A DNA stretch of 64,000 bases from Robiginitalea myxolifaciens (lineage in GTDB: Bacteria > Bacteroidota > Bacteroidia > Flavobacteriales > Flavobacteriaceae), in NCBI RefSeq assembly GCF_900115205.1, contig NZ_FOYQ01000001.1, positions 1,391,240 through 1,455,239 of the forward strand, in the 5' to 3' direction. Positions within the stretch are counted from its first letter, which is position 1; every line of letters begins with the position of its first letter. Position numbers and translations under genes: made by a program. Shown here in pieces: positions 23,783 to 26,973 of this stretch. The notes below the pieces were generated by a model that was not told where the DNA came from, made no database searches, and worked only from the letters and a program-made list of their open reading frames with translations.

Positions 23783-24391
23783 ATGTCATTTCAGTTACCT
23801 AATTTGCCGTACGCTTATGACGCTTTGGAGCCTCATATCGACGCGCGCACTATGGAAATCCACCATACAAAACACCACAACGGATACACCACCAAACTCA
23901 ACGGAGCTATTGAAGGGACAGACCTCGCCGGGCAGTCTATTGAAGATATCCTCGGCGGACTCGATATGAATAATGGAGCTGTAAGGAATAATGGAGGCGG
24001 TTTTTATAACCACTGCTTATTCTGGGAAGTTATGTCACCCGATGGTGGCGGGGAGCCTTCTGGCGAACTGGCAGCAGCCATCAATGATGCGTTCGGGAGT
24101 TTCGAAGGATTTAAAGAAAAGTTCAGTTCAGCCGCGGGAACGCGATTCGGTTCCGGATGGGCCTGGCTATGCGTCCACCCTGGAGGTAAATTGGAAGTTT
24201 GCTCAACACCAAACCAGGACAATCCACTAATGCCCGGTGTAGGATGTGAGGGCTACCCAATCCTCGGGATTGATGTTTGGGAACACGCCTATTATCTGAA
24301 CTATCAGAATCGTCGCCCGGATTATATTGCGGCATTTTTCAACGTCGTCAACTGGGATAAGGTTTCTGCTGAGTACGCCAGTCATAAATAG
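23783..24391 (+). CDS. sodA: Superoxide dismutase (Fe/Mn family, Mn-type signature)
   Basis: Dismutates superoxide to peroxide and oxygen. The 202-residue chain has metal-ligand segments [30 protein letters not shown] and [20 protein letters not shown]. Gly-Gly before the second His and Gln in STPNQDNPL are features of manganese rather than iron enzymes, but cambialistic members exist, so the metal is inferred. No signal peptide, so it is cytosolic. It is a single gene with a terminator just downstream. Confidence 0.95.
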
Positions 24392-24410
24392 AACAATACC
24401 GCTTAAAGAG

Positions 24411-24442
24411 AAAACCCCGGGGTATTCCCTCGGGGTTTTTTT
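24411..24442 (+). terminator. Intrinsic terminator of sodA
   Basis: ACCCCGGGG pairs with the CCCTCGGGGT segment with an A-run before and a T7 run after. It begins 19 bases after the sodA stop. Confidence 0.85.
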
Positions 24443-24455
24443 ATGCGATACCTTA

Positions 24456-24530
24456 AATAGAAAAGGGCGGAGCAAGCTCCACCCTTTTCATCCCAAATCT
24501 TACCATAAACTTAACCTACTTATGCTATGG
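24456..24530 (-). ncRNA. Putative small RNA, copy 1 of 3
   Basis: Read on the minus strand, the unit starts with CCATAGCATAAGTAGG at 24530, runs through a core of about 40 bases ending AAGATTTGGG, then forms a terminator hairpin (GGGTGGAGC/GCTCCGCCC) with a T-rich tail, about 75 nt in all. Its promoter fits the Bacteroidota consensus: TTTG-N19-TAATTTAG. In the core this copy has T where the other two have C, which gives a CCATA/TATGG pairing at the 5' end. The same core recurs at 24663-24736 and 24904-24978. No protein role is apparent. It could belong to a known flavobacterial RNA family; a covariance search would tell. Confidence 0.7.
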
Positions 24531-24536
24531 CAGGGA

Positions 24537-24567
24537 CTAAATTACTGGTATTAAGAGAAATAACAAA
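24537..24567 (-). promoter_or_regulatory. Promoter of small RNA copy 1
   Basis: TTTG (24567-24564), 19 bases, then TAATTTAG (24544-24537) on the minus strand. The conserved RNA core starts 6 bases after the -7 element, which fits a transcription start at or near its first base. Confidence 0.65.
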
Positions 24568-24662
24568 GAAATTAAGGGAAATTTTAAGTTCTTCGCCCCT
24601 TGTCAGCTGCGGTAATTTAAGTCGAAACGGACTACAGAGGCGTTAATTCTTTGGGTATCAAC

Positions 24663-24736
24663 AAATAAAAAAGGCAAGGTTATCCCTTGCCTTTTTCCCC
24701 AAATCTTACCATGAACTTAACCTACTTATGCTATGG
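24663..24736 (-). ncRNA. Putative small RNA, copy 2 of 3
   Basis: Minus-strand unit of about 74 nt with the same 5' core (starts at 24736), followed by a hairpin AAGGCAAGG/CCTTGCCTT and a T6 tail. TATTTTCG (24749-24742) stands 5 bases upstream with TTTC 19 bases further up. The stem sequence is unlike copies 1 and 3 but pairs fully, so structure rather than sequence is kept in the 3' part. A ten-codon frame starting MVRFG lies inside; it ends in the hairpin. Confidence 0.7.
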
Positions 24737-24903
24737 TGATCCGAAAATAAGGCGGGCTTCCGGATGCCGAAAAGGTTTTGGATAAACGGGGGAGAAAACC
24801 GATGAATGACCCGATCCCAATACAATATGTAAGAACCGGTATTTTTTGTTGTGGAAATTACGCGCAAAAAATGTAAGAAGGCCAAAGGGTGCGCGGGGTT
24901 CAG

Positions 24904-24978
24904 AAAATAAAAAAGGTGGAGAAACTCCACCTTTTTTGCCCCAAATCTTACCATGAACTTAACCTACTTATGCTATGG
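24904..24978 (-). ncRNA. Putative small RNA, copy 3 of 3
   Basis: Minus-strand unit of about 75 nt, core starting at 24978, hairpin AAAAGGTGGAG/CTCCACCTTTT with a T6 tail. The -7-like element is TACCTTAG (24991-24984), again 5 bases before the core, but no TTG is seen at the -33 position, so this copy has the weakest promoter. The core differs from copy 2 by no base that I can find. It is the copy nearest to the end of purF. Confidence 0.65.
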
Positions 24979-25040
24979 CATTTCTAAGGTATGCAGGGTT
25001 GCTCCGGATAGGTCGATTAATCCGATTAAAGGTGAATTTT

Positions 25041-25076
25041 ATCGATGAAATGCAGTTTTTTGTGCATTTCATCGAT
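25041..25076 (+). other. 14-bp perfect hairpin after purF
   Basis: ATCGATGAAATGCA (25041-25054) pairs perfectly with 25063-25076 around an 8-base loop GTTTTTTG. A T-run follows on the plus strand, while on the minus strand, where purF ends 5 bases away, the downstream side is A-rich. It may still end or protect the purF transcript, or stop plus-strand read-through. Confidence 0.6.
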
Positions 25077-25080
25077 TTTT

Positions 25081-26973
25081 CTAGTACGCTCGTTGATTTT
25101 TCCCCTCGTAAAAATTCATAAACGCACGGTTTACCACGCGGTTTCCGCCGGGTGTAGGATAATCACCGGTAAAGTACCAGTCGCCCAGGTTATGCGGGCA
25201 AGCCTGGTGCAGGTTTTCGATGGTTTGGTAGATTATCTGCACCTCAGCTTTTATTTCAGTAGGACTGAGTAATTCTGCGATCTTAACGGATAATTCCTCA
25301 GCGGTAAACGGTTCGTAGAATGCCTTGACAAAATTTTCTGGTTCTGCCTCTTCAGCAGACGCCTGGCACTGCTTGTATATGTCTTCGATGACCTCTGTCG
25401 TGCCCCGATCCTGGTGCAGCGCGTAGGCAGCCCGGAAGGCGATGAAGTCTTCCAGCTTTGCCATATCGATTCCGTAACAATCCGGATAACGGATTTGAGG
25501 AGCAGAGGAAATGACAATGATCTTTTTAGGGCCCAAGCGGTCCAAAATACGGAGGATACTTTTTTTCAGGGTGGTTCCCCGAACAATACTATCGTCTATA
25601 ATCGCCAGATAATCGCCGGGGTTTACAGAACCGTATGAAATATCGTAAACGTGGGCGACCAGATCGTCCCGGCTGCTATCCTGAGTGATAAAGGTCCTCA
25701 GCTTGGCATCTTTGATCGCTACTTTTTCGATCCGGGGCCGAACATCCAGGATCTCGTGAAGTTCCTCACGGGTCATCTCAGGTCCCCGGGCCAGGATTTG
25801 TTCTTCCTTTTTCGCATTGAGGTAATTCTGAGCTTCCCGCAGCATTCCCAAAAAGGAAGTTTCCGCCGTGTTGGGGATGTAAGAGAATACCGTGTGCCGC
25901 AAATCTTCGTCAATAGCCTTCAGGATTTGTGGAAATAGCAACCGCCCCAGTTCTTTACGCTCTTCGTAGATCTCTTTGTCGTTACCACGTGAGAAATATA
26001 TGCGTTCAAAAGAACAGGCTTTGCGCTGTCTGGGTTCCTGGATTTGCTCGACGGAAAGCCCGCCGTCTTTTTTGACGATCACGGCTGCTCCCGGAGGCAA
26101 CTCCTTTACCTGGTCATAAGAGGTATTGAAAACGGTTTGAATCGCCGGCCGTTCTGAGGCAACCACAACCACTTCGTCGTCCTGATAGTAATAGGCAGGG
26201 CGAATCCCGGATGGATCCCTGAGGACAAAGGCATCCCCATGGCCCACCAAACCGGCCATGGCGTATCCGCCATCCCAGTTCTTAGACGATTTTCTCAGGA
26301 TTTTCCCCAATTTGAGTCGTTCTGCGATAAGCGGGGTTGCTTCGAGCTTGGTGAATCCCTCTTTCTTGATTTGCTTGTAAAGCTTGGCTACGGCATCGTC
26401 CAGAAAGTGTCCGATTTTCTCCATCACCGTAATGGTGTCGGCCATTTCCTTAGGATGCTGACCCAGGGTCACGAGGTTGTCAAAAAGTTCCCGGACATTG
26501 GTCATGTTGAAATTCCCTGCAACGATCAGGTTCCGGTGCATCCAGTTGTTTTGGCGGAGGAAAGGGTGAACACTCTCGATACTGTTTTTCCCAAAGGTGC
26601 CGTAGCGCACATGTCCGAGGAGTAGTTCCCCTACATAGGGAATATGCTCCTTTTGCCATTGTGTATCGGTAGTGCGGTCCGGGTTTTCTTTCAGGGCCGT
26701 ATTGATCCGTGCGTTGATCTGGTCAAAGATATCCTGGATCGGCTGAGAGGCATTTGACCGTACCCGACTCATGTAGCGTTGGCCGGGAGCCATATCCAGT
26801 TTGATGCTCGCAAAGCCCGCACCGTCCTGACCGCGATTGTGCTGCTTTTCCATCATCAGGTACATTTTGTTTACCCCGTAAAAGGCCGTACCATATTTTT
26901 CCTGATAGTATTCGAGGGGTTTAAGAAGGCGGATTAATGAGATCCCGCATTCGTGTTTGATGGCGTCGCTCAT
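25081..26973 (-). CDS. Amidophosphoribosyltransferase family protein, long form
   Basis: Class II glutamine amidotransferase fused to a phosphoribosyltransferase, as in PurF, which makes phosphoribosylamine from PRPP and glutamine. The N-terminal nucleophile is Cys9 in KHECGISLIRL, and HNRGQDGAGFASIKL is the Ntn-hydrolase segment. The PRPP site is YLAIIDDSIVRGTTLKKSILRIL. At 630 residues it is longer than ordinary PurF (about 500), with extra sequence in the glutaminase half and at the C-terminus. It may be a second PurF-type paralogue, so I leave the symbol blank. It ends the purN-rnh-pfkB run. Confidence 0.85.
   Translation of the reverse strand: MSDAIKHECGISLIRLLKPLEYYQEKYGTAFYGVNKMYLMMEKQHNRGQDGAGFASIKLDMAPGQRYMSRVRSNASQPIQDIFDQINARINTALKENPDRTTDTQWQKEHIPYVGELLLGHVRYGTFGKNSIESVHPFLRQNNWMHRNLIVAGNFNMTNVRELFDNLVTLGQHPKEMADTITVMEKIGHFLDDAVAKLYKQIKKEGFTKLEATPLIAERLKLGKILRKSSKNWDGGYAMAGLVGHGDAFVLRDPSGIRPAYYYQDDEVVVVASERPAIQTVFNTSYDQVKELPPGAAVIVKKDGGLSVEQIQEPRQRKACSFERIYFSRGNDKEIYEERKELGRLLFPQILKAIDEDLRHTVFSYIPNTAETSFLGMLREAQNYLNAKKEEQILARGPEMTREELHEILDVRPRIEKVAIKDAKLRTFITQDSSRDDLVAHVYDISYGSVNPGDYLAIIDDSIVRGTTLKKSILRILDRLGPKKIIVISSAPQIRYPDCYGIDMAKLEDFIAFRAAYALHQDRGTTEVIEDIYKQCQASAEEAEPENFVKAFYEPFTAEELSVKIAELLSPTEIKAEVQIIYQTIENLHQACPHNLGDWYFTGDYPTPGGNRVVNRAFMNFYEGKNQRAY

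Follow-up and report, generated by a model that had tools for sequence, protein, structure and literature searches.

Three tandem gene copies of a small RNA, here called RNA A, lie on the minus strand of the window, the 64,000-nucleotide stretch of the Robiginitalea myxolifaciens genome that was analysed. The sequence of RNA A, its conservation in the Flavobacteriaceae, and its complementarity to a second RNA, RNA B, as well as to the translation starts of mRNAs, were observed directly. RNA A is probably a trans-acting sRNA with several gene copies that prevents translation from starting, and in one clade RNA B would titrate it as a multi-site sponge; transcription, repression, sponging and an activator at a direct repeat in the promoters are the steps that we infer from these sequences. 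Under the proposed mechanism, a 5' hairpin of RNA A would present the loop AGUAGGUUAA, followed by the single-stranded linker AGAUUUGGGG and then by the terminator, and the linker, joined by the loop where complementarity is best, would pair with an mRNA directly before its start codon, such that translation is blocked, as is known of FopS in Bacteroides (PMC11697453). Promoters that differ among the copies would feed different input into the same output, and several differently controlled copies would scale the amount of RNA A. RNA B, encoded mostly beside hflX in one clade and carrying up to three antisense sites, would act as a sponge for RNA A; it would there impose a threshold or hasten shutdown, in the manner of QrrX and CrfA. 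Post-transcriptional control in the Bacteroidota is known mainly from Bacteroides, and to our knowledge the phylum has no Hfq. If the proposal is correct, the Flavobacteriaceae have a family-wide sRNA encoded at a fixed place in the genome, an mRNA target that can be tested, whose site lies directly before the start codon, and a natural sponge with several sites. The system would then allow the action of sRNAs and sponges to be studied in bacteria that are not known to have Hfq.

Anatomy of the three copies between purF and sodA

The array of RNA A genes is located between two convergent genes. The upstream neighbour, on the same strand as the array (25081..26973, minus strand), encodes a 630-aa protein with glutamine amidotransferase domains only, according to Pfam, and is presumably purF; the neighbour on the other side is sodA (23783..24391, plus strand), which encodes an Fe/Mn superoxide dismutase. 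Copy 1, on the sodA side, occupies 24456..24530 (core 24491-24530, terminator hairpin 24460-24489), copy 2 occupies 24662..24736 (core 24697-24736, terminator hairpin 24668-24696), and copy 3, on the purF side, occupies 24904..24978 (core 24939-24978, terminator hairpin 24909-24937), all on the minus strand. From the start of the core through the T-run, each copy measures about 75 nt, matching the 74-75 nt given in the initial annotation. The 40-nt cores of copies 2 and 3 are identical, and that of copy 1 has two differences (C/T in mid-core and A/G at the end).

The flavobacterial promoter consensus is TTTG-N19-TAnnTTTG. A -7 box precedes every core on the minus strand (TAATTTAG at 24537..24544 for copy 1, TATTTTCG at 24742..24749 for copy 2 and TACCTTAG at 24984..24991 for copy 3), with 5-6 nt between the end of the box and the core in all three; a clear -33 box, TTTG at 24564..24567 (minus strand), 19 nt upstream of TAATTTAG, is present in copy 1 only. 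Copies 2 and 3 each have a direct repeat with 20-bp spacing on their 5' side, TTCATC/TTTATC at 24781..24806 (minus strand), a candidate activator site, and TTCATC/TTAATC at 25024..25049 (minus strand), respectively. The distal half of the latter (25044-25049) falls inside the terminator-like hairpin of purF (25041..25076, minus strand), so that terminator and operator have bases in common. The sequence between the copies had been described as unrelated; this does not hold throughout, as copies 2 and 3 have a common upstream repeat, TTCATC...TT[TA]ATC with 20-bp spacing, that is kept in relatives.

Folding z-scores of the three RNAs were -3.5, -4.4 and -3.6 against 200 shuffles, and a simple terminator scan reported copies 2 and 3 and missed copy 1. 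When the source genome (3.2 Mb, three contigs) was searched for the core at up to three mismatches, three matches were found, and the reversed-pattern control gave none, which excludes chance. No conserved reading frame was seen when the core was inspected by eye for a small ORF. The array does not fit a cis-regulatory leader or riboswitch, as no same-strand gene lies directly 3' and copy 1 faces the convergent sodA. These data bear out the tandem architecture first described, with three minus-strand units, each with its own -7 box and terminator and with a 40-nt core that is nearly the same in all. The same anatomy in other genomes supports, at the level of sequence, the earlier suggestion of three separately transcribed RNAs of one family, and with several near-identical, apparently independent transcription units, at 1-6 copies per genome, RNA A resembles a multicopy sRNA.

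Distribution, promoters and fold of RNA A

The core was present at up to three mismatches in 69 of 199 genomes of Flavobacteriaceae, with 1-6 copies in each, and the reversed-pattern control gave no match. A covariance model of RNA A matched 33 of 395 genomes taken from across the phylum, and all 33 belong to the Flavobacteriaceae. Eight listed genomes of the family gave no match to the model under strict filters; purF was located in these eight, and the gap between purF and sodA was visible in two only. The purF-sodA spacer of genome G521 (L064) holds a strongly diverged RNA A copy with a terminator, at about 1300-1365 on the minus strand, that the model missed, and the gap in L067 holds no RNA A copy. 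A scan over named genomes yielded at least 118 stretches with RNA A; the genera among the matches listed, mostly Flavobacteriaceae, include Maribacter, Zobellia, Arenibacter, Flagellimonas, Flavobacterium, Aquimarina and Winogradskyella, and some of the stretches come from unclassified Bacteroidota MAGs. One MAG labelled Lentimicrobium (L176) has a Flavobacterium-like RNA A locus, for which mis-binning seems likely.

Synteny was scored at 178 loci, some of which come from one and the same genome. Both the same-strand purF and the convergent sodA were found at 135 loci, purF alone at 26, sodA alone at 11 and neither gene at six, and hence 172 of the 178 loci have one or both neighbours. Two loci with neither gene (L160 and L185) are close to where the retrieved stretch stops, and four loci flagged as having an opposite arrangement were false matches inside coding sequence. 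Single copies away from purF and sodA seem real at four loci of named genomes (L078, L087, L129 and L139). Rows of up to five copies occur at L025 and L036, where some spacers are nearly identical, suggesting recent tandem duplication. The tandem, near-identical copies with unrelated spacers could also be expected of a non-transcribed DNA element or a REP-like mobile repeat. This reading is very improbable, given only three copies in the genome, the fixed purF-sodA synteny, and promoters and terminators that are kept in place while their letters change. The initial annotation had named a scattered mobile repeat without promoters as the case that would speak against RNA genes; with three copies at one place and one or both neighbours present at all but six of the 178 loci, such a repeat was rejected.

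For comparison of the copies, a loose search returned 415 matches, of which 400 remained after filtering (those dropped include matches within sodA and other coding sequence) and 375 were distinct. The core occurs in 44 variants among these 375 copies, and 139 of them have one identical 39-nt core; across genomes, the letters of the terminator stem vary while the core stays frozen. The promoters differ among the copies even though the core is frozen. Forty-eight of the 375 copies have the class A promoter of window copy 1, with a conserved spacer, TTTGTTATTTC-C-CACAATACCAGTAATTTAG, and most of the other 327, like window copies 2 and 3, have the direct repeat, which reads about GCATTTCATC and GC-TTYRTC at 20-bp spacing. 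Its proximal half begins 52-53 nt upstream of the aligned core in 278 of these 327 copies, within a search that was confined to a short range there. LytTR-type half-sites are usually spaced by 21-22 bp, and we take the repeat to resemble them. An activator may bind the repeat; that it is a response regulator would be a guess by analogy.

The fold of each copy consists of two hairpins, one at the 5' end and one that forms the terminator. Pairs were counted on 29 of the 44 core variants; in these, 87.5% of the cells in the 5' hairpin were paired, compared to 18-54% when the partners were slid. Four cells had both sides changed, a number reached by 1 of 500 shuffles; the count of double-changed pairs, which was two, was reached by 118 of 500. 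The inner A-U pair of this hairpin fails in 16 of the 29 variants, and RNAalifold, applied to 36 whole copies, found no pair changed on both sides. The outer stem of the 5' hairpin is likely real, and we take it as likely that the AGUAGGUUAA part is mostly an open loop. In many genomes the linker AGAUUUGGGG is 1 nt shorter and reads GGTAGATTTGGGG, suggesting that AGAUUUGGGG is one unit.

Complementarity of RNA A to translation starts and to RNA B

In the source genome, the linker complement CCCCAAATCT stands directly before the ATG of a gene for a 424-aa PD40-propeller protein (L197, L396; domain assigned by Pfam); other matches to CCCCAAATCT in this genome were L202, L207 and L222. Orthologues of the PD40 gene were found in 15 of 20 genomes, and 13 of the 15, from eight genera, were used for comparison. 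L406 and L410 were dropped because no start could be set. For L399, an ATG further upstream was chosen by hand, and in L408 and L409 the start is distant from the position that the alignment predicts. Two of the 13 (from the source genome and G191) were found via the site itself, and 11 were chosen independently of it. Mean conservation upstream of the 13 starts was 1.35 bits per site at -20..-11 and 1.02 at -10..-1, compared to 0.2-0.8 further up, and the pattern before the ATG is about AACCCCAA-ATCTT...TTATG. Compared to 552 background starts, 11 of the 13 genes had a duplex energy with RNA A in the best 2%; the other two have weak sites, for which 40 of the 552 did as well. These data point to the PD40 gene as a predicted target of RNA A.

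Further candidate sites were found through the complement itself, so that they count as candidates and the energies of most mRNA sites are selected values. In 6 of 22 Flavobacterium genomes, CCCCAAATC-RAAC..(T)AC.T stands directly before the start of a gene for a 113-aa TPR protein. Two single cases are the starts of what are presumably an M28-type peptidase gene, with CCCCAAATCTACCTAACCTACC before the ATG, a duplex of -31.7 kcal/mol that no start among the 552 of the background equalled, and a gene for a 404-aa lipoprotein, with a duplex of -27.2. In two Flavobacterium genomes (L307 and L309), the ATG of a 195-aa gene is immediately followed by CCCCAAATCTAC, for which coding constraint may be the reason. 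The start regions of 54 ORFs in the window contained no strong RNA A site (best -20.5). Several wider searches for targets were set aside. CCCCAAATC..ATG gave 125 matches in the 22 Flavobacterium genomes versus 36 for the reversed pattern, but enrichment is not claimed because codon use spoils the control and overlapping matches were counted twice. Thirty loci and 20 regions out of the 125 matches were inspected; many lie inside genes, and 10 of the 20 regions had no ORF of at least 80 aa at the ATG, or only part of a longer frame. The loop complement TTAACCTACT alone, used as a seed in five genomes, gave counts at or below the reversed control and no targets; in the source genome it had three matches, all in RNA A genes, versus six for the reversed pattern, which is a poor control because of its stop-codon content. 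A target list for the source genome, drawn from an 8-mer before ATG, was discarded as too noisy.

RNA B was reached by searching five genomes for CCCCAAATCT, which in two genera (L204, L210) matched in the intergenic spacer beside hflX. When hflX was recovered from 26 of 26 genomes, an RNA B gene was found downstream of it in 11. The gene consists of a -7 box, a leader GTGTAATTAAGTGATAGTGTT, antisense sites and then a terminator, and it is often multicopy, with two or three genes in a row in several genomes. Each RNA B has up to three sites antisense to the RNA A core, which read about CCCCAAATC..CTTGAACTTAACC, CCCCAAATCGG-ACTTAACCTA and CCAATCTTAC..ACCTACTTA. Against 300 dinucleotide shuffles of RNA B, the A-B duplex reached z<=-3 for 11 of 15 RNA B sequences and stayed above -3 for four; among the 13 that were found by synteny, not by complementarity, 10 reached this threshold. 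The best duplex had -43.2 kcal/mol versus a shuffle mean of -19.2. The first sites were unbeaten by any of 300 shuffled RNA A cores in 11 of the 15 sequences, and reversed RNA A paired better than RNA A itself with two (L255_3165 and L257, the latter from the source genome). Of 30 loci that a sequence model of RNA B returned, 27 have a duplex z<=-3, a set that is not independent because the model contains the antisense sites. Beside hflX, the source genome has a B-like promoter and leader and has lost the antisense sites (L257, duplex z +0.47). On sequence, RNA B resembles a sponge, being an independent non-coding gene complementary to the seed of an sRNA, except in the source genome, where, with RNA A intact and the sites of RNA B lost, only the mRNA-directed part of the mechanism would act.

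The RNA B model matched 107 of 397 genomes of the family at E<=0.01 and 54 of 397 at E<=1e-5; some of the weak matches are the antisense strand of RNA A loci, as expected. All 23 genomes with a strong RNA B match that were also in the RNA A survey have at least three RNA A copies, compared to 33 of 199 genomes overall, and this co-occurrence may be explained by shared ancestry. The RNA B promoter also contains a TTCATCG box, and an operator profile built from RNA A promoters outscored each of 100 shuffles in 13 of 30 RNA B promoters (median z 1.96), about half of the alignments covering one half-site only. A common regulator for RNA A and RNA B is thereby hinted at, weakly, as a possibility. 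Upstream of RNA B in L273-L302 there is also a direct repeat, TTCACAACA, with 21-bp spacing, perhaps the site of a second regulator.

Both in the mRNA sites and in RNA B, pairing uses the linker and the loop and skips the 3' strand of the hairpin. This pattern bears on an unlikely alternative, in which RNA A binds a protein as a decoy of the CsrB or 6S kind, the frozen core is the protein site, and RNA B is a competitor or a decayed antisense copy. Short multicopy RNAs can titrate proteins, and nearly the entire core of RNA A is frozen, beyond the typical need of a seed, as the prevalence of one 39-nt core illustrates; however, protein binding does not predict sites at start codons that recur in RNA B with the same strand of the hairpin skipped. 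The roles could also be reversed, with RNA B the main regulator and RNA A an abundant decoy or co-degradation partner that controls it. The conserved 5' leader GTGTAATTAAGTGATAGTGTT and elaborate promoter of RNA B are what an active sRNA would have, but we give this arrangement little credence, as RNA A occurs in many genomes where the RNA B model gives no strong match, the source genome keeps RNA A intact though its RNA B sites are lost, and the conserved mRNA sites match RNA A. Taken together, the conserved complementarity to translation starts and to RNA B supports by inference the regulatory role that the initial annotation had proposed, and RNA A is best read as the sRNA and RNA B as its candidate sponge. 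A more specific version is tentative, and its chances are somewhat below even: a tandem array of start-codon-blocking sRNAs at purF-sodA, whose copies receive separate promoter inputs, would be set in one clade against tandem three-site sponges at hflX, maybe with related direct-repeat, LytTR-like activator sites at both arrays. If this two-array arrangement is real, it would be a Qrr/QrrX-type circuit of independent origin that uses dedicated multi-site sponges, in a phylum that is not known to have Hfq.

Comparison with known RNAs

The initial annotation had considered a match to Flavo-1, which was not supported. In a search of the window against Rfam, tRNA alone reached its gathering score, and Flavo-1 was absent from the 45 sub-threshold matches at E<=10 in 24380-25080. 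Among sub-threshold matches, sraA (30.4 of 56 bits), STnc320 (26.4 of 50) and BASRCI337 (22.6 of 229) were far below gathering and were taken as chance. The covariance model of FopS (RF04319) scored 19.1 and 18.9 bits, compared to a gathering score of 56, with E values of 2.5 and 2.8. No report of RNA A or RNA B was found in open-licence papers. RNA-seq studies of F. psychrophilum (PMC9723704) and F. columnare (PMC5395568) list unnamed or numbered sRNAs, and RNA A may be among these without a family, array or sponge having been noted. The RNA A family and its putative sponge RNA B appear to be new, although RNAs of this kind are already known from Qrr/QrrX, Sis/CrfA and FopS.

Rfp18 of Flavobacterium psychrophilum is an sRNA conserved in flavobacteria for which metalloprotease targets were predicted (PMC9723704). 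Likewise, some candidate sites of RNA A precede peptidase genes; by description, however, Rfp18 is predicted to pair via its third stem-loop and RNA A folds into two, and RNA A may be identical to one of the RNAs in that study. In Caulobacter, four sibling sRNAs, SisA-D, are inactivated by one sponge sRNA, CrfA (PMC12559287); these are Hfq-associated RNAs of the Alphaproteobacteria and are set beside RNA A and RNA B by description. FopS of Bacteroides thetaiotaomicron binds around start codons and represses translation (PMC11697453), and, similar to RNA A, it comprises paralogous Bacteroidota sRNAs in several copies, which measure about 65-70 nt and are conserved in the seed part at the 5' end. 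The 14 FopS members are described as intergenic, antisense and, in one case, 3'-UTR-derived, with one promoter type, and the main text of that paper does not use the word sponge (PMC11697453). Dissimilar from FopS, RNA A forms a tandem array fixed at purF-sodA, has two promoter classes and shows no sequence match to it. Qrr1-4 and QrrX of Vibrio cholerae resemble the proposed pair in that the sRNA copies have a pairing domain in common, at which a dedicated sponge with transcriptional control of its own is aimed (PMC9732341). That system is Hfq-dependent, and QrrX has one pairing region as described (PMC9732341), whereas RNA B has up to three sites and is often multicopy.
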